29,465 nt of DNA from a virus: IMG/VR virus record IMGVR_UViG_3300037584_004022, positions 1-29,465 of that record, one strand, 5' to 3'. The notes beneath the pieces are model-generated. The model made no database searches. It saw nothing but the letters and a program-made list of their open reading frames with translations, and was not told where the DNA came from. This document shows, piece by piece, positions 6,755 to 26,927 of this stretch (within the stretch, counting starts at the first letter, position 1; every line of letters starts with the position of its first letter). Position numbers and translations under genes: made by a program.

Positions 6755-7092
6755 TGGCGACACCTGCATGGCAAAGAAAAGAAGGTAAAAGCCCGTCTGG
6801 CGGTTTAAACAAAAAAGGGGTAGCGTCTTACAGAAAAGCAAACCCAGGAAGTAAATTAAAAACCGCAGTAACGACTAAACCTTCTAAATTAAAAAAGGGT
6901 TCTAAAGCTGCAAAGCGTAGAAAGTCTTTTTGCGCAAGAATGAAAGGAATGAAAAAGAGATTAACCTCAGCAAAAACAGCTAGAGATCCTAATTCAAGAA
7001 TTAATAAGTCTTTGCGTAAATGGAATTGTGGTAGTGGTTGTAAAATGCCAGCCAGACCAGTTTCTAGATCCTTTTATAGACAATTAGATTAA
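6754..7092 (+). CDS. Small basic protein, DUF6321-like, with C-terminal YRQLD tag (112 aa)
   Basis: The N-terminus TPAWQRKEGKSPSGGLNKKG (residues 3-22) is typical of short phage proteins that I associate with DUF6321. The second half, RRKSFCARMKGMKKRLTSAK followed by DPNSRINKSLRKWNC, is a second conserved block seen in many phages. Both assignments are from memory. Cys residues occur in FCARM and WNCGSGC. The protein ends SFYRQLD, the fourth copy of the shared tail, although the preceding Gly-Gly motif is replaced by CGSGC some residues upstream. It is strongly basic. The gene is coupled to both neighbours through TAATG junctions. Confidence 0.8.
   Translation: MATPAWQRKEGKSPSGGLNKKGVASYRKANPGSKLKTAVTTKPSKLKKGSKAAKRRKSFCARMKGMKKRLTSAKTARDPNSRINKSLRKWNCGSGCKMPARPVSRSFYRQLD
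7075..7092 (+). repeat. Gene-junction repeat copy 4 (encodes YRQLD-stop)
   Basis: TATAGACAATTAGATTAA, followed by TGGC, as in copy 3 with a single base change. This is the last copy; the next gene (7092-7310) lacks the tail. Confidence 0.7.
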
Positions 7093-17021: not shown

Positions 17022-17043
17022 TAATTGTCTTAAATTGTGCCCT

Positions 17044-18150
17044 ATGATTACACTAAATGAATTAGCATATAATATAAAAAATATAGCATACGGAGGTGAA
17101 TCTTCAGATGAAAGTTCTATTAGTACAAATCAAATAAAATTTTGGATACATTATCATAGAGCAAAACTTATAGCGGACAACATAAATAAAGGAATATTAG
17201 ATCGTTCTGAAATATATCAAGATATTCATTTAAACAATTATAACACAACCTCTTCACGTATAAAAAATTATATAGAAAGTTATAATTTATTTTTACAAGG
17301 TAAAGCAAGTCAACCAGCTTTATTAGAAGATGTTCCTGCGGATGCAGAAGGAAAGTTATATGTTGATTTTATTCCAACCTCACCTATAAGTAGAGGTATT
17401 GATAGTTTTGATTGGTCGGCTCAAATGACAAGAGACATGCATGGTCAAGATTTTTACTCAGATGGACATACAAGAGGAAACTTTAGAAACAGAGGTTATA
17501 AATCATTTACTATACCTGAAATTTTATTATTAGATCATAAAAAAGGTTTTGGAAAAGTACGATATACAAGAACAATATATAGAGAAGATCTCTCTAACAC
17601 GCCCAATATGAATGAATTTCATATAGGACAAAGCTTTCAAGCAAAAGAAATGATGTATAGGTCGCAAGACGATGTTATACACTCTGGGCATAATAGATTT
17701 ACTAATTTAAGAAATGAACCTTTTTATCAAATAGATAATAAAAGTATAAATAGTTCGGTAAATGAAGATGGGGGTCAAACTATAATATTAAAAAATTTAA
17801 GAGTAACCCCAAATTATCATGACAATTATAGCCAATTTCAAAGATGGTTTTTTGCATACAAAGCTTTTGCGCAAATGATATTTCAAAATCCAACAGAAGT
17901 TCCAGAAAAAGCAGGCTATGATCCAAGAAATTTTAGTACTTATAACAATTATCAAAGACCTAATAAGCCTAATTTATGGGACGACAGTAAAGATTCCTAC
18001 CCTATGCCAATGGATTTAGTGGGAGATTTAATACAAAGAGTAATACAATCAGAAGTTCAACCATCGTTAAAAACAATGCCAGATATAGTCGGTGATAATT
18101 TTGACGATACAACAAAAATGAAAATAAGTGGGGCACAAGTACAAAGATAA
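17044..18150 (+). CDS. Ring/adaptor-like tail protein (368 aa)
   Basis: The start is placed at ATG 17044 (MITLNELAYNIKNIAYGG). An upstream TTG at 17035 is in frame but would begin with Cys-Pro and lies too close to the predicted transcription start. The first 60 residues, including TNQIKFWIHYHRAKLIADNI, match a helical N-terminal pattern common in structural proteins of Bacteroidota phages and the ring proteins of crAss-like phages. Beta-rich segments follow (SFTIPEILLLDHKKGFGKVR, KVRYTRTIYRED), with a helical C-terminal part (PMDLVGDLIQRVIQSEVQPS) that also resembles that group. The likely role is one of the stacked rings between portal and tail muzzle. It is the first gene after the strong promoter. 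Confidence 0.65.
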   Translation: MITLNELAYNIKNIAYGGESSDESSISTNQIKFWIHYHRAKLIADNINKGILDRSEIYQDIHLNNYNTTSSRIKNYIESYNLFLQGKASQPALLEDVPADAEGKLYVDFIPTSPISRGIDSFDWSAQMTRDMHGQDFYSDGHTRGNFRNRGYKSFTIPEILLLDHKKGFGKVRYTRTIYREDLSNTPNMNEFHIGQSFQAKEMMYRSQDDVIHSGHNRFTNLRNEPFYQIDNKSINSSVNEDGGQTIILKNLRVTPNYHDNYSQFQRWFFAYKAFAQMIFQNPTEVPEKAGYDPRNFSTYNNYQRPNKPNLWDDSKDSYPMPMDLVGDLIQRVIQSEVQPSLKTMPDIVGDNFDDTTKMKISGAQVQR

Positions 18151-18988: not shown

Positions 18989-20140
18989 ATGCATATAAAT
19001 ATAGATAGAATATTTACAACGGTTTCCAGAAATTTAGGTTTAAAAGAATGGTCTAAACATTTAGATAGTTGGATAGAGTGGACATACGAAGCCGAAAGGT
19101 TGATAGGTAGTATTGATACTTTTGTAACAAGGGAAGCAACATATACGACAGAAGGAGCAAAAGCTACAGGAAAGATTACATTTACAGCTAATTCAAATCC
19201 TATAGATGGTGACTCTATAGAGCTAAACGGAACTGTTTTATATTTTAGAAAAACTAGTGGAACTGCTGCTTCAGGCGGTGTTACTGCTTTAAACAGCAAT
19301 GAAATACGATTATATCCCAGTCCCCTTAATAATTTAGGCAATACTTTTTTACAAGTAGGGGGAGTAAAAAGAGCTCTAATTTCTGATCAAAGCTCTATGG
19401 GCGTAGCGGCTGGCGCTAAAGTTTATTATCCAGAGACAGTAGGTCTTGCTACTTATGAATTAGCAACATCTTCTGGGGCTACTTTGGATGTGAACACAAC
19501 GGAGGAGTGTGTAATAAATATTACCGCAAAAGAGATAGGGCAACAAGGTAATGATTTCACCATATCTTGTGACGCGGGCAACAGAATAAAAACAGATGGC
19601 TTCAATTTGACTGGAGGTAAAGGAATATATAACAATCAACAGTTAAGATTGCCAAACAATCTTGTAAAGTTGTTAGCAGTGAGAGTAGGAGAGGACGATT
19701 CACAATTTAAAAATGCAGAAATATTAAAAATATCTTCAGTTCATAGAAGCAGAGTAGGAAAAATAGAAAATAGTTCAGAACAAAAAGCGCTTAGGTATTA
19801 TGTGGATGGTAACAGATTAAATATTGCTCACGATGATTTAGATGAAATAACTATTGTTTATTTAGCTTACCCAACTGACATGAGAGGATGGCCTATGGTA
19901 AAAGAGGGTCACGAAACAGCGGTTGCTCAATATATAATGTGGCAAATGAAATTAATAGAATTTTACAATGGTCAACTTCCGCAATATATAACAAAAGAAT
20001 TAGAAAGAAGATGGTACCAGTTATGCGCAAAAGCCAGAGGGGATGACGCAATGCCAACTCCAGAAGAATTAAAACAAATAGGTAAGCTATGGAATACGTT
20101 AGTACCTCTTAAGAGTAATAATGGTTTAATAGACTTGTAG
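18989..20140 (+). CDS. Ring/tail-adaptor-like protein with an inserted beta domain (383 aa)
   Basis: Residues 1-50 (INIDRIFTTVSRNLGLKEWS, then WIEWTYEAERLIGS) and 213-383 (LPNNLVKLLAVRVG, then YYVDGNRLNIAH, VYLAYPTDMRGWP, AVAQYIMWQMK) together form a protein type typical of crAss-like and Bacteroidota podovirus ring or adaptor proteins. Between them, residues 52-212 are a separate module: ATGKITFTANSNPIDGDSIE, LNGTVLYFR and CVINITAKEIGQQGNDFTIS ending in GFNLTGG. Repeats of that kind are familiar from phage fibre and decoration proteins (DGD...I..NG and AGN...LTGG blocks). I infer that a surface beta domain has been inserted into a neck or tail ring protein. The gene ends one base before the giant tail gene. 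Confidence 0.65.
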   Translation: MHINIDRIFTTVSRNLGLKEWSKHLDSWIEWTYEAERLIGSIDTFVTREATYTTEGAKATGKITFTANSNPIDGDSIELNGTVLYFRKTSGTAASGGVTALNSNEIRLYPSPLNNLGNTFLQVGGVKRALISDQSSMGVAAGAKVYYPETVGLATYELATSSGATLDVNTTEECVINITAKEIGQQGNDFTISCDAGNRIKTDGFNLTGGKGIYNNQQLRLPNNLVKLLAVRVGEDDSQFKNAEILKISSVHRSRVGKIENSSEQKALRYYVDGNRLNIAHDDLDEITIVYLAYPTDMRGWPMVKEGHETAVAQYIMWQMKLIEFYNGQLPQYITKELERRWYQLCAKARGDDAMPTPEELKQIGKLWNTLVPLKSNNGLIDL

Positions 20141-20141
20141 A

Positions 20142-23100
20142 ATGGCAAAAAAAAGACAGCAAAATCCAGCCCAAACTGGACAATCAACTCCAGAGGGTTT
20201 TACGCAAGGAATGGTAAGCGACCTTGATCCAAGGTTTCAGCTTAAGGGCAGTTATGCGGATGCAAAAAACATTAGGCTTACTAATTCAGAAGGAGACACG
20301 TTTACTGTAGAAAATATAGAAGGTAATAGCTTGTTTGTAGACTTATCTACCTTTCACATAGACACTCCTTCAGATCAATATCAAATGCCAAACAACGAAT
20401 CGTACCCAACATTTTTTGATAGAGGTCCCAGTGGAACTGTTGAAAACAATTATCCTTTAGGAAATAGAGCTTCTATTGTAGGAAACATTTCTTTTCAAAA
20501 TAAAATTATATTAGTAGTTGTAGCTAGATTTGATTGGGTAAGATTACCAGACGGCACAAGAGTAACAAGCAACCCTAATTTATCTGACGACACTCAAGCG
20601 AATTGGTCAAATGATAATACGGAAATAGACAGAACTATATTTTTACAAGTAGATTTTGATTCTAATTTTAATGTAAGCAAAGTTACAGACTTAAGAGTAT
20701 GTTATAAATTCAGCGATGATAACTACCCAGACTTAAACATGGATTTAGATCGCCCAATAAGAATAGAATATATAATTGAAAACGAAAATATACAAAGAAT
20801 ATATTGGACTGATAATAAAAACCCATTAAGAACTTTAAATTTACAACAGAAAGGGTTAGACGAATTAAGCATTTCGTCTTTAGATATAACTCCTATAGTA
20901 AAACCTTCACAGCCTGTTTTAGACTTGACGCTGCATGGCAACTTACCAGTAGGCGTGTATCAATACTCTTTTAAATATATAGGAGAAGACGGAGGAGAGT
21001 CTACCTTTTCTCCATTAAGTAATATGTATCATGTGTCTGACCAATCTTTTTCAAATACAAGCACATTTGGTGGAGGACCAAAAGGTAATTTAGGATCGCA
21101 AGGTTTTCAGATTAAAATTAACGGTATTGATGATAATTTTCAATATATAGAATTGTATTCTTTATTTTACGACACATTAAATCAACCGCCTAGAGTCGCG
21201 GTAGTTGCTAGACAACAAGTATTTGGAACTTCAGCTACATTTCAACATACCAATTGGAATAATGAGGTAGAAAATGGATTAGAAGAAATATTAATAGAGT
21301 CTAATACTTTTGATGTGTGTAAAGATATAGCTATTAAAGATAATATTTTATTTGCTGCAAACCTAAGACAAAAAAGAAATTACGTTTCAGAAAAAGAATG
21401 GAATGTAAAAGTTTTAAGGTGGAGAATACATCCAGGCGGAGCTGGTGTTGGAGGTGTGCCTAAATTAGATGCAATGTTAACCTGTAGTGACACGCAGGTA
21501 AAACATTATACAACTTCAGGAACATATCCTAATCATACCGCGGTTGAAATTACAAATGGACTTTCTGAAAGTACTGTTACAAAAGATTACAATGACGATC
21601 GTGTGGGTCATGGACAATTATTAGGCGCCCCATCAACAATGTACAACTCAACAGCTTATAACGATCATGACAAATTTAGTTATTTAGGAATGTTAAATGT
21701 TCCAATGTGGACAACTTATTTATCAAATCAAAGACTTGAAACTGGTGGGGGAATCTCTGCTGTTCATGACTATTTTACATATAGATTTTTGTCAGATAGA
21801 ATGACGCTAGGTGCAGAGAGTTTTGAATATGCGTCAAATTTATTAGGAGGGTGTCGTGTCACTTTTGCTTTACAGGAAAAAGTAGCAGATCAAGCTGGAA
21901 ACGCGCATAGTACACCTTTTATATCTGCTGCAAACGAAGGCGATCAAATAACAACAAATTATTCGGTAAATCAAGCTACTGAAGAAGGAGCGGTATTTAA
22001 AACCTCTATGTCTTTAGGCGGGTCGCAAGATCCATATGCAGCAGGAGACAAAAGAGGATATCAAAGAAGTGATATATATAGGTTTGGAGTACAGACATAC
22101 GATTTAAATGGTTCTCCAGGAAATGTTCTATGGATAGGAGATATAGAAACCCCGAATCAACATGATCTTGTAAGAATGGTTGATATAGAAAATGACAATA
22201 GTGCAAATGGCCAATCTTATAACCCTTATAGACCAACGATATTAGGTTCTTATAACAATAACCCTGCAGTAGTTTATCATGGTGGCGCGACTCCAGGGGC
22301 CAGTTTAGTTTCTGGTAAATGCATGAAATCACACCCGATAGTAAAAGATTACAGGCTTTCACACATATATGGTCACGCTATAGCCCCGCCAGATTTGGAA
22401 TGGTTTACCAATAGAGATACAGGAGGTATAACAAACACAGACGCATATATAAATAGCGTAGGTGATAATTTAGCTTTAAGCCGTGTGCCGGGTCCTGGAG
22501 GAACTCAAAGTGCATTTAAATACCCTTCTACCCAGGCCAATGCAAGAAACAAAGCCTTGCCAGTGTTTTCTGGAGGAAATAATACATATTCAGGTTATAA
22601 TTTGCCTGGGCACACAGACACGCATTATTTATATGATTTAGCAGTAGTATTTGAATTTATCATACCCAATAATGTTATTAAAAAAATATCTGGATTTAGA
22701 GTTGTTAGAGCAGAAAGAAAAGAAGACGATAGAAGAATTGTACAACAGGGATTACTAAATCAAACAGCTCAATACGGAAGCGCAGAGCACGGAATGAAGT
22801 ATGGTTATGACGATTCTCGTTTTTGCAGAAAAGATAACGAAGCATTTGATGACGATCCAGTATTTGCAAACGAATGGAATGATCAAGCTACAGGCACTCT
22901 AACACCAACATTGCCAGAGCAACCAGAATATAACGTCTACTTAAATGGATATTTAGGTCTTGCAGAGAATTCACATATGGCCTTTTATGACGATTCTGTT
23001 TCAGATGGAAAGGCTACTACGGGGGGAAATACAGAAGGAAATGTTTTTTTCTGGCCAGAAAGAGAAGATACAAAAAAATATGGAGCGGGTACCGCGCAAA

Positions 23101-26100
23101 AAGTAAGAGGTGCGCTTATGGACCAAGGAGCCTACAGTGGGCAAGTAGCTTATGAAGGTAATGGAGGGCCAAATGTATACGGAAGACATTTTAGACATTC
23201 AGGATATTTTGGTAGTTTTGATAAATCGCATATAGTTAAAAATTCCGAAACAGAAGATCATGCTAAAGAAAACCACAATCACATAAGCGCAGATATCTTT
23301 ACATTAGACGCACCAGACAGTGCTTTTGGAATTAGGCCTTACTCGTACAGAGATGGAGATATGCTAAGAATAGATTGTGTCTTAAAATTATCTGATGAGG
23401 TAAGGTATGATAATCAGTCCTCATATTCATGGGGATCAAATTACGCACATCATTGGTGGTCTCACGGAAGAGGAATTTCTAAAAAAGGCCAAGACTTAAC
23501 AGGAAACGATCTTGTTCCTACAAGATATTCATCTAATGGTCAAGTTGAATTGTGGAAGCCAGAAAATACAAATTCTTCTCTTTTTGAGGCAATGAGTTTT
23601 GCTGGAGGAAAAGAAATAGATAAAGACTACAGGGTTTTAGTAGGTAAATATTATTGTTACGAGCCATATTTTGGTATTGGTATGGAGATAACTGGTGGTG
23701 ATTTTGCGGGATCAGGTCATGAAGGTGGTGGTAATTATAAACCAGATCGTCAATATGGGTGGCAACTGCCTATTTCTGCAGCTAAAGAACTTTCAGACGG
23801 GGAAATAGTACCTAGTGGGTTTTTCAAAAAATCAGATAAAATAGAAAAGGGAAGAGTAAATGGATTTTCTAATAATACATTAGGTTTTTGTACGCTAGCC
23901 AGAACAGTCGGTTCAGGTGCTAATGATTTAACTTCATTAGAAAGACACCATTATTATGTGTTTGGATCTGTTTCACCAAACTTACCTTTTATAGGTCATG
24001 ATGGAAACGGTAATCAAACACAAAAATCAGACGTAAAAGAAGAAGATTATACGTATGACACTGTTTCAACAGTGCAAATGGGATTAAGAACCATTCTTGT
24101 AGAAATAAACACAAAAATAAATGAAGTAAGAAAATATGGCCCAGGACCTTCAGACACATTTTTTGATGTTAGATATAACGGAGTACATAGATATAACTCA
24201 TGGTTTGCGCCTATAAATTTAGGGGCTTTATACGAAACGTCTGCTTGGAAAGCACAACAACTTACACCTCCTAGCGGTGCCGCAGGGGGAGGAACATTAG
24301 CAGATTCTTCAACTTATAGTAATACCTATCAAATACCTTTACTTCAAGGATTTTTAACTGAATATGGAGAGGTTGGAACACAAATAAATGGAGATATTTC
24401 ACATGACGGAGGTCATACAAATGATTTTTCTAATAGAAATAAAAGTCTTATACCATATAAACATTTATGCTCTATAGTTAGGTATACTACACCTTATGGT
24501 GGTTACACAAAAGGAGCAATAGAAAAAACACGCTGGATTCCATGCGGTAATTTTCACAGGGTGTCGGCAGATGACCCTGCCTTTAATAATCCTGATATAC
24601 CTCAAGGACACGCATGTAAGGTTTTTGGAGGAGATACTTTTGTAACTCTATACTCACATCAAAAAACTTCTAGTCCTTACATGAAAAAATCTGCTTCAAG
24701 GTTTCAACTGTTCCCTGTTGAGTCTTTTGTAAATACAGATATGAGAAGCGGATTAACACTTGCAGCAGGAGATACTGTAGTTGGTAAAAACATGAACGAA
24801 CCACCATTTAGTAATGATTGGTTGTACAATAGTGTATATTCACAAACTAACAATATAAAATCTGGTTTAGCTGTAGACGAAGAAGAATTTGACAACAGTT
24901 TAAATTTACCTTATGAAATAGCGTATTCTAAAACAAAAATATTAGGACAAAGAACAGACGCGTTTAGACAATTTCCTATAAATCAATTTCATGACATGGA
25001 AGGATTGTATGGCGAAATAAACAGAATAGTAAATTACAAAAACGAAATATATGTTTTACAGGATAATGCTTTTGCTAAGCTTCTTGTGAATCCTTTGTCA
25101 ATGTTGAGCGATGATCAAGGAACATCGTTATTTACGGGGACAGGAGAGACGGTAGAAAATCATATATACATATCTACTAAATTTGGAACACGTCATAGAT
25201 TCAGTGTAACACAAAGTGAAAAATCTTTATATTTTGTAGACACTAACTTTGCAAGATTATTTAAATATGATACAGAAAAACTAATATCATTAGGTGACGC
25301 GTTAGGACAAAGAAGTTATTTAAAGTATATAATTCATGATTGGAAACAGCTTACACATTCTACATGTCAATCATCACATCCAGGTCAAACGCACGACACT
25401 TTATATGGAAGATTAAATTCAGTAGAAAAGCCAGACTTAGATAGAAATTACCTTTCAGACAACCCATTAAATTTTTTAGGAATAACTTCTATATTTGATT
25501 ATAACACAAAAGAATTAATGGTGACGTTTCACAACTCAAGCTTTGGTGATAAAAACAATAAAAGACAAGATTTTGCAAGACCGACAGACAACCATATAAT
25601 GTCAAGACCAAAAGATGGTGTGCCTGTAGGTGTGTCAGAAACTTTAGTATATAGTGAAGCAATAAATGCATTTACTTCAAAATACAGTGTTGCTCCTCCA
25701 CAATGGATAGCAGGTGGTTCAGGCACTTTTATATTGTGCCCTGAAAACGAAATTAACGTAACTTCAATAGCTAGCTTTAGTTTAAGTACAGGTCTTTCTA
25801 ATAGTGGTTCAAATTTCCCGTACAATGAACATGGGTCAAACAGTTATAGGTTTAAAAACGAAAGATGCAATCCTTTAAAACTTTGGATGTGGGGTGTGCA
25901 TAAACAAGAAAAGAAAAATCACTTTTTTGGAAAAAAAGGAGATGTTTTTGAAAGAGTGTCTAGAACTTCAACTATAGATGCAAGTCAGGGCGCACAAAAC
26001 GCTTACATACCTTTAGCAGGATCATCAGGAGATATTCCAGACGAAAGCTATATTGTAAAGGTTATAAACTCTGAAGCTAGTAGCAGTAAAATATTTGATA

Positions 26101-26927
26101 ATGCAAAGGTGGTTATGACACCAAAATACACAAATTATAGCTACATAGATTACACAACTGATTTGTCACATGACACAGTAGATGTTAGTATGACTGCGGA
26201 TCAGTACGGTATAGAGCACCACAGAAAGTTGGATGAGCCTGAGCAACTTGTAATAAACAATAGGTGGGACTTTGAAGAAGGTATGGATGGATGGTATTAT
26301 CAACCAAACGGAAATCCTGACTTTGAGCCAGTACCATTAACTGTTAATGGGGACTCAACAGTTACATTTGATATAGTAGAAAATGCTGATATTAGTTCAC
26401 CAAGAAAAGCTCCTCATTTTAGGTTTATCGGAAAGTACAATAATATAATAAGAGTAAAGTTACAAAGAACTGCAGGATCAAATATATCGTGGGATGGTAG
26501 TTTATATTGGGAAGGCTTTAAAACATTAGAATACGAAAAAGGCAACTATAATTTTGTACAGGTAAATGCAGGTAGAAGAGGTATTACGGCAGATCCAGGA
26601 TCAACTATAGAAAGTGATTATGTAATATTGGAATGGGATATGTCTGCTGTAGGCGATAATACTGCAAAGTGGAACGACTGTACTATAGAAAGAATTTTGA
26701 TTAGATTGCATGGAACTACTGGTACAGGTACGTACGATGTGGATTGGATTGAAATAGGAGGTTTAAAAGCACATAAATATTCAGACGGAACACTAAAAGT
26801 ACCCCTAAGAACAGAGAAAAGCATAAGAAGAACAAGAGGAACATACGCGAAAATTAAATATCGTGTAAAAACTACAGAAAAATTTAATATCTTTGCAATA
26901 CTTGCAAAGTATAGAAAAACTTATTAG
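20142..26927 (+). CDS. Giant muzzle/tail-stabilisation-like protein (2261 aa) with C-terminal carbohydrate-binding-like domain
   Basis: The N-terminus, GFTQGMVSDLDPRFQLKGSY (19-38) followed by ADAKNIRLTNSEGDTFTVEN, is characteristic of tail stabilisation or muzzle proteins of crAss-like and Cellulophaga podoviruses, to my recollection. It is followed by long beta-rich repeats consistent with propeller-like domains, for example INRIVNYKNEIYVLQDNAFA near residue 1625 and SLYFVDTNFARLFKYDTEKL near 1695. At 2261 residues it is longer than the roughly 1300-1500 I recall for gut crAss muzzles. Residues about 2035-2205 look like an inserted jelly-roll carbohydrate-binding module, and the protein ends with a basic strand region (KSIRRTRGTYAKIKYRV). 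It probably closes the tail tip and touches the host surface. The host-binding role is inference. Confidence 0.75.
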   Translation: MAKKRQQNPAQTGQSTPEGFTQGMVSDLDPRFQLKGSYADAKNIRLTNSEGDTFTVENIEGNSLFVDLSTFHIDTPSDQYQMPNNESYPTFFDRGPSGTVENNYPLGNRASIVGNISFQNKIILVVVARFDWVRLPDGTRVTSNPNLSDDTQANWSNDNTEIDRTIFLQVDFDSNFNVSKVTDLRVCYKFSDDNYPDLNMDLDRPIRIEYIIENENIQRIYWTDNKNPLRTLNLQQKGLDELSISSLDITPIVKPSQPVLDLTLHGNLPVGVYQYSFKYIGEDGGESTFSPLSNMYHVSDQSFSNTSTFGGGPKGNLGSQGFQIKINGIDDNFQYIELYSLFYDTLNQPPRVAVVARQQVFGTSATFQHTNWNNEVENGLEEILIESNTFDVCKDIAIKDNILFAANLRQKRNYVSEKEWNVKVLRWRIHPGGAGVGGVPKLDAMLTCSDTQVKHYTTSGTYPNHTAVEITNGLSESTVTKDYNDDRVGHGQLLGAPSTMYNSTAYNDHDKFSYLGMLNVPMWTTYLSNQRLETGGGISAVHDYFTYRFLSDRMTLGAESFEYASNLLGGCRVTFALQEKVADQAGNAHSTPFISAANEGDQITTNYSVNQATEEGAVFKTSMSLGGSQDPYAAGDKRGYQRSDIYRFGVQTYDLNGSPGNVLWIGDIETPNQHDLVRMVDIENDNSANGQSYNPYRPTILGSYNNNPAVVYHGGATPGASLVSGKCMKSHPIVKDYRLSHIYGHAIAPPDLEWFTNRDTGGITNTDAYINSVGDNLALSRVPGPGGTQSAFKYPSTQANARNKALPVFSGGNNTYSGYNLPGHTDTHYLYDLAVVFEFIIPNNVIKKISGFRVVRAERKEDDRRIVQQGLLNQTAQYGSAEHGMKYGYDDSRFCRKDNEAFDDDPVFANEWNDQATGTLTPTLPEQPEYNVYLNGYLGLAENSHMAFYDDSVSDGKATTGGNTEGNVFFWPEREDTKKYGAGTAQKVRGALMDQGAYSGQVAYEGNGGPNVYGRHFRHSGYFGSFDKSHIVKNSETEDHAKENHNHISADIFTLDAPDSAFGIRPYSYRDGDMLRIDCVLKLSDEVRYDNQSSYSWGSNYAHHWWSHGRGISKKGQDLTGNDLVPTRYSSNGQVELWKPENTNSSLFEAMSFAGGKEIDKDYRVLVGKYYCYEPYFGIGMEITGGDFAGSGHEGGGNYKPDRQYGWQLPISAAKELSDGEIVPSGFFKKSDKIEKGRVNGFSNNTLGFCTLARTVGSGANDLTSLERHHYYVFGSVSPNLPFIGHDGNGNQTQKSDVKEEDYTYDTVSTVQMGLRTILVEINTKINEVRKYGPGPSDTFFDVRYNGVHRYNSWFAPINLGALYETSAWKAQQLTPPSGAAGGGTLADSSTYSNTYQIPLLQGFLTEYGEVGTQINGDISHDGGHTNDFSNRNKSLIPYKHLCSIVRYTTPYGGYTKGAIEKTRWIPCGNFHRVSADDPAFNNPDIPQGHACKVFGGDTFVTLYSHQKTSSPYMKKSASRFQLFPVESFVNTDMRSGLTLAAGDTVVGKNMNEPPFSNDWLYNSVYSQTNNIKSGLAVDEEEFDNSLNLPYEIAYSKTKILGQRTDAFRQFPINQFHDMEGLYGEINRIVNYKNEIYVLQDNAFAKLLVNPLSMLSDDQGTSLFTGTGETVENHIYISTKFGTRHRFSVTQSEKSLYFVDTNFARLFKYDTEKLISLGDALGQRSYLKYIIHDWKQLTHSTCQSSHPGQTHDTLYGRLNSVEKPDLDRNYLSDNPLNFLGITSIFDYNTKELMVTFHNSSFGDKNNKRQDFARPTDNHIMSRPKDGVPVGVSETLVYSEAINAFTSKYSVAPPQWIAGGSGTFILCPENEINVTSIASFSLSTGLSNSGSNFPYNEHGSNSYRFKNERCNPLKLWMWGVHKQEKKNHFFGKKGDVFERVSRTSTIDASQGAQNAYIPLAGSSGDIPDESYIVKVINSEASSSKIFDNAKVVMTPKYTNYSYIDYTTDLSHDTVDVSMTADQYGIEHHRKLDEPEQLVINNRWDFEEGMDGWYYQPNGNPDFEPVPLTVNGDSTVTFDIVENADISSPRKAPHFRFIGKYNNIIRVKLQRTAGSNISWDGSLYWEGFKTLEYEKGNYNFVQVNAGRRGITADPGSTIESDYVILEWDMSAVGDNTAKWNDCTIERILIRLHGTTGTGTYDVDWIEIGGLKAHKYSDGTLKVPLRTEKSIRRTRGTYAKIKYRVKTTEKFNIFAILAKYRKTY
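26247..26762 (+). other. Carbohydrate-binding-module-like domain within the giant tail protein
   Basis: Residues about 2035-2205 start with RWDFEEGMDGWYY and end with GTYDVDWIEIGG. These are typical opening and closing strands of jelly-roll carbohydrate-binding modules (W-x-F-E...DGW at the start, D-x-I/W-x-I-G at the end). The unit is flanked by muzzle-type sequence, so it appears to be inserted. No ligand can be named. Confidence 0.45.

Follow-up and report, generated by a model that had tools for sequence, protein, structure and literature searches.

A carbohydrate-binding-module-like domain inserted in the muzzle protein of an uncultured crassvirus and its kinship with siphophage tail-tip domains

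Crassviruses are abundant, and the muzzle protein of the uncultured crassvirus analysed here carries near its end a separate domain (positions 26247 to 26762), which interrupts a loop of the C-terminal domain. From its sequence and predicted fold this domain is related to domains in the tail-tip proteins of siphophages and resembles carbohydrate-binding modules (CBMs). We think it probable, with some reserve, that this CBM-type insert, a homologue of siphophage tail-tip domains placed on the barrel end of the muzzle, binds polysaccharide of the host surface and aids adsorption. Adhesion modules of this kind are known, but we found no earlier report of one on this scaffold. Being an expressible domain of approximately 170 residues, it gives a handle on what uncultured crassviruses bind, and it would be a case of the same adhesion module serving tail machines that are unrelated, the crassvirus muzzle and the tail tips of siphophages.

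The window, by which we mean the whole stretch of DNA analysed, is the 29,465-base virus record IMGVR_UViG_3300037584_004022, which is only a fragment of a phage genome; all features described here lie on its plus strand. An open frame at 20142 to 26927 encodes a protein of 2261 aa, which we identify by its sequence matches as the crassvirus muzzle. It matched the Pfam family PF25731 (crAss_MUZ) over residues 20 to 1857 with 438.6 bits (E 8.5e-131), above the cut-off of 27 bits, as well as PHROG 28748 (phrog_28748, E 3e-59) and gp44 of crAss001 in PDB entry 7qok (E 2.4e-29). Upstream of the muzzle gene lie the genes for the portal, the major capsid protein and two tail ring proteins, ring protein 2 (17035 to 18150; PF25702, E 2e-9) and ring protein 1 (18989 to 20140; PF24228, E 4e-18). 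With 371 and 383 aa, respectively, the two ring proteins exceed their Pfam models of 210 and 272 positions and, being longer, may hold inserts too. Muzzle residues 122 to 186 (20505 to 20699) gave many weak PDB matches, none better than E 0.01, to alpha chains of T-cell receptors, which may reflect a mere beta-rich resemblance.

The inserted CBM-like jelly-roll domain is in frame with the muzzle open reading frame and comprises 172 residues (2036 to 2207), running from LVINNRWDFEEGMDGWYY to YDVDWIEIGG. It is preceded by the first part of the MUZ_C domain, probably the ring-joining domain (26040 to 26189, residues 1967 to 2016), identified by its match to PF25729, and followed by the remainder of the same C-terminal domain (26778 to 26924, residues 2213 to 2261), which is 62-93% identical to that of 13 module-bearing relatives. 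Relatives without the insert end in the same C-terminal sequence, so that the resumption of a muzzle-type ending, part of the original prediction made from the letters of this DNA, holds. The prediction had also picked out motifs at both edges, and these proved to be conserved wherever the module is present (16 sequences). In the N-edge motif RWDFEEGMDGWYY (26262 to 26300) R9 and F12 are invariant and W10 and W19 nearly so, and in the C-edge motif YDVDWIEIGG (26733 to 26762) D169, E172 and I173 are conserved; over the whole module I6, N7 and E172 are likewise invariant, and D169 is nearly so.

The insert splits PF25729, because the match to this family is unbroken in relatives without it, where it covers positions 15 to 81 (locus L021 in our numbering), 9 to 82 (L022) and 5 to 83 (L025), and is cut off in relatives that carry it, stopping at position 66 in the window and in L005 and at position 76 in L018. 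In the window the match, split by the insert, covers positions 11 to 66 of 83 with 16.1 bits (E 0.016), below the cut-off of 27 bits; the insert-free relatives reached 30.6 bits (L022, above the cut-off), 21.8 bits (L021) and 22.1 bits (L025).

Using the C-terminal half of the muzzle ahead of the insert as a protein query, we obtained 24 loci, two of which (L012 and L016) end before the site. The module was present in 15 of the 22 loci reaching it, including L024 and, in part, L015, and was cleanly absent in seven (L021, L022, L023, L025, L026, L027 and L028). A second search with an alignment of the propeller core gave 26 contigs and added the contig of L002, which has the module, and L078, which does not. 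Over both muzzle-core searches, which reach close relatives only (26 contigs), 16 of the 24 contigs extending to the site have the module and eight lack it. This count was taken without the module as a query, and near-copies occur among the contigs (L009/L010, L014/L019, L022/L023 and L025-L028); L037 was found by the module query alone. The prediction of a separate module near the end of the muzzle is thus borne out by its absence in eight of 24 contigs and by the split of PF25729.

The two conserved flanking motifs are 247 residues apart in the window and 344 in L018, compared with 70 to 81 in the four of nine named crassviruses that have both; the other five lack one or both motif strings. 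In crAss001, gp44 belongs to the same protein family as the window muzzle, C-terminal domain included, and has no insert, with 70 residues between the motifs. Length variation due to insertions has been reported for the crass and IG2 regions of muzzles and, as far as the available text of that report goes, not for the C-terminal domain (PMC10172136). In this uncultured crassvirus the most variable inserted part of the muzzle lies in the C-terminal domain, not in the crass domain.

AlphaFold2, run on the window module with 16 homologues in the input, gave a model consisting mostly of strands, with a pLDDT of 84.0 and a pTM of 0.82. As modelled, the module is a beta-sandwich (jelly-roll) of the carbohydrate-binding-module type, in agreement with the original prediction, and the structure prediction and fold search that had been proposed as a check revealed no continuity with the muzzle fold. 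The top Foldseek match in the PDB was 8gtc_M, the baseplate megatron of roseophage R4C (E 3.4e-5). At E <= 0.001 there were 26 matches, of which 25 were CBMs, glycan-active enzymes or the R4C megatron and one was Wntless. With VIA, residues 479 to 631 of 8gtc_M again came first (Z 14.2, rmsd 3.1, 149 aligned of 178 residues), followed by a CBM22-bearing xylanase (12.2), CBM15 (11.7), the HFTV1 turret (11.7) and CBM27 (11.1), and 180 of 992 chains had Z >= 8. Members of CBM families 22, 15, 27, 28, 29, 30 and 11 share the beta-sandwich with the module at Z 9.5-12.2 over 128 to 156 residues; the module differs from solved CBMs in having no Pfam family match and in its identity below 20% in the listed rows. 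Among the closest folds are CBMs directed at plant or algal glycans, and also laminarinases. The VIA list also includes proteins that, as far as named, bind no sugar; a complex I assembly factor at Z 11.2 and a virus turret at Z 11.7 are among them, as are laminin IV-like domains, so the fold is no proof of sugar binding. In a library of predicted viral structures, the first four matches included a protein labelled 'Tip attachment protein J central straight fiber' as well as a fibre protein of Pseudoalteromonas H101. In a separate model of the L018 C-terminus, the module and the part nested in it had a pLDDT of approximately 70 to 88 save for short dips, and the ring-joining region one of approximately 30; 8gtc_M was once more the first match (Z 14.8).

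The relationship to R4C was visible before any structure was used, the sole PDB match of the module sequence profile at E <= 10 being residues 587 to 628 of the R4C megatron (E 0.14). An hhalign comparison of the module profile with the R4C domain yielded a probability of 95.8 and, for a single comparison, an E-value of 7.7e-9; in a local rerun it scored 55.9, as against scores of at most 25.1 for 200 shuffles, 18.7 for 81 other window segments and 14.5 for 14 other megatron segments. By tblastn the R4C domain retrieved 38 phage records, namely 34 from Klebsiella, three from Pseudoalteromonas and R4C itself. The module of L008 retrieved two records that are also among these 38, the tip attachment protein of Klebsiella HJK1 (E 0.4) and a record of Pseudoalteromonas XG4 (E 0.8). 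Five tail-tip domains were picked from 40 tblastn rows and compared with the module by hhalign, with 40 shuffles each. All five exceeded the shuffles (maxima 17.5 to 23.7), with scores of 86.9 for HJK1, 68.8 for Chambers_MM6, 61.2 for XG4, 52.8 for KpLi5 protein J and, as the weakest, 32.3 for H101 (shuffle maximum 23.7). When aligned with the siphophage domains, W.F, GW, SP, an (I/L)R...R strand, W.G and (V/I)DW..(I/V)G are common to most rows, and Klebsiella protein J (HJK1, Chambers_MM6 and KpLi5) and Pseudoalteromonas XG4/H101 show the same line W.F...GW...SP...(I/L)R...R...W.G...W as the module. In HJK1 and Chambers_MM6 the domain follows a stretch of protein J that looks helical by eye. 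Judged by these profile comparisons, the module has homologues in the central tail-tip proteins of siphophages (the R4C megatron and Klebsiella protein J) and in tail-tip proteins of Pseudoalteromonas phages. Homology above controls, a fold shared over the whole domain and insertion in a tail protein were all found.

The R4C domain (PDB 8gtc, Dinoroseobacter phage vB_DshS-R4C) is, like the module, an insert in a tail protein, the megatron at the tail tip, according to the available text on that phage, in which residues 482 to 629, the span matched by VIA, were called a carbohydrate-binding domain from their likeness to CtCBM11, by topology alone (PMC10276861). The two share their fold and are homologous by profile, with a direct sequence identity of only 15-17%. 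Their scaffolds differ, that of R4C being a siphophage/GTA-type baseplate megatron of a phage with an alphaproteobacterial host and that of the module a crassvirus muzzle. As far as these sources were accessible, CBM-like inserts in phage tail proteins are already known from R4C (PMC10276861), and domain mosaicism of phage tail proteins is well documented (PMC10684548). Our search of mostly non-subscription literature found no report of a CBM-like domain in crassvirus muzzles.

Other searches with the module gave little. Pfam, at E <= 1, showed no CBM family match for 15 module sequences, and Pfam, PHROGs and NCBIfam together produced only weak, scattered matches confined to single members (e.g. 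KA1, 0.002), which we took as chance. The window module had no tblastn match in phages and plasmids. A scan of 84,980 species genomes with the module alignment returned 34 pattern matches, none of them confirmed; given the limited reach of the scan, this is no argument against the occurrence of the domain in cells.

In crAss001, the muzzle is a hexamer at the tail end with its crass domain distal, this crass domain is proposed to contact the cell surface, and the ring-joining domain and propeller resemble those of the T7 nozzle, as described in the accessible parts of the structural report (PMC10172136). The original prediction had placed the module at the tail tip. We rejected the distal tip in favour of a lateral site, because the MUZ_C domain is homologous to the ring-joining (platform) domain of T7, which puts it at the barrel end. 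By this homology the insert most likely belongs to the ring-joining (platform) domain and faces outwards where the muzzle meets the barrel. It would then stand out sideways from the barrel end, and, with the muzzle of crAss001 being hexameric, it would be present in six copies per virion.

That no separate tail-fibre gene is seen in the window had been offered as support for a receptor-recognition role. PHROGs and Pfam indeed identified none among the larger window open reading frames tested, but this absence means little because the window is only a 29-kb fragment. The nearest relative, the 65.9-kb contig of L005 (65,897 bases), encodes an 813-aa protein (51810 to 54251; L089:5811-8252) that matched PHROG tail-fibre families (1e-33 and 1.4e-31), and we therefore abandoned the missing fibre gene as an argument. 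Since this relative has a separate fibre gene, the module would supplement the fibres rather than replace them. The same contig encodes a 248-aa protein (L088:17762-18508) with a weak likeness to ConA-type lectins (4.2e-4, below the cut-off). Both proteins lie far downstream of the muzzle, in a region missing from the window.

Compared with 13 relatives, the window shows 32-45% identity in the module, 66-77% in the propeller, 46-57% in the crass region and 62-93% after the module, so that in most of these comparisons the module diverges faster than any other part measured. Polysaccharide binding is likely because of this fast divergence, the tail-tip homology, the CBM fold and the location on a host-contacting machine. 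What the analysis shows is the insertion, the fold, the homology, a single gain or loss in this lineage and a divergence faster than that of the flanks; glycan binding, the lateral position and a role in adsorption we infer. The ligand would be a polysaccharide of the host surface, be it capsule, exopolysaccharide or LPS sugars, and during adsorption the module would strengthen the hold provided by the tail fibres and help to keep the muzzle against the envelope. Against glycan binding, the conserved residues of the module could be structural, its fold also occurs in proteins that bind no sugar, and no CBM match was found at the family level. The fibre gene of the nearest relative also counts against the preferred reading. 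A purely structural module, which would bind no sugar and would stabilise the joint between muzzle and barrel or dock a fibre or other tail protein, is the most credible alternative, though an unlikely one. By T7 homology the module lies in a domain joining the adaptor or ring, a jelly-roll fibre dock adjoins the platform in T7, the fold is common to proteins without sugar ligands, and the nearest relative has a fibre gene. Against it stand the fast divergence of the module, its absence from eight of 24 related contigs and its homologues in tail-tip adhesion proteins, and in crAss001 it is the R1/R2 collar to which the fibres attach, not the muzzle.

The module might also be a host-range cassette undergoing fast exchange between related phages, which we consider improbable. 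Its low identity (32-45%) and the patchy distribution of the inserts nested in it would fit such exchange, as would an excess of third-position differences between L005 and L006 (61/182 in the module versus 384/1877 elsewhere, P 1e-4), an excess that was noticed after the fact and is nearly equalled in one stretch of the crass domain. In contrast, the window, L005 and L006 cluster together in the trees of the flank (100/100), the crass domain (100/98) and the module (92/97), which points to mainly vertical descent, and the presence of the module requires a single change on the flank tree (16 sequences). The dN/dS values in the module, 0.12 (L005/L006), 0.26 (L014/L019) and 0.12 (L015/L020), speak for purifying selection in the three pairs that differ there; L009 and L010 are identical in this part. 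Of the comparison of relatives that had been suggested with the prediction, presence and absence therefore came out clearly (16 and eight of 24), and exchange of the module between relatives is weakly suggested only.

Marginally less probable again is that the module binds free or environmental polysaccharide, such as mucus or particle sugars, keeping the phage near its hosts without recognising them. The plant- and algal-glycan CBMs and laminarinases among the closest folds, and the apparent existence of separate host-recognising fibres, are compatible with it, but the homologues of the module reside in tail-tip proteins that contact the host. That the insert belongs to a continuous muzzle fold, with no separate domain, is highly improbable and was rejected, since relatives have a clean empty site and the module folds alone with a pLDDT of 84.

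In several relatives further inserts are nested inside the module. In L007, L014, L018, L019, L020, L024 and L015 (cut short), a second insert of approximately 94 to 104 residues carries the line GKYFF...HGRR...W.VGD; on the tree it calls for three or more changes, and it recurs in L047 (PF25729 at 7.8e-4) and L094, two muzzle-like proteins that are more distantly related. A different nested insert of approximately 160 residues is found in L011 (L011:7128-7613), and its line NLIVNGSF...GW...IDNI looks by eye like that of CBM4/9-type modules. The nested inserts, that of L011 included, had no Pfam match and no phage match. A profile search of the PDB returned only an annexin VI row at 0.005, which had no passing stretch, and four weaker ones, taken as chance. 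We tentatively suggest that in these uncultured crassvirus muzzles the ring-joining domain is a preferred site at which adhesion modules are inserted and stacked, having received the CBM-like module once, with the type of approximately 100 residues inside it in several lineages and that of approximately 160 residues in one. If this is true, the muzzle would bear an evolvable lateral adhesion collar apart from the fibres, built from a module found across different tail types and phyla of hosts.

Two of these loci have features of their own. L094, an open frame of 2305 residues with its match at residue 1667, is muzzle-like, belongs to another lineage and has more than one repeat of the nested type; near its C-terminus lies a further stretch that looks CBM-like by eye, NLVPNMTLANGW. 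In L015 a stop follows position 7007, inside the nested module and approximately 75 bases from the contig end, after which the sequence reads like L020; this is either an error at the contig end or a real stop.
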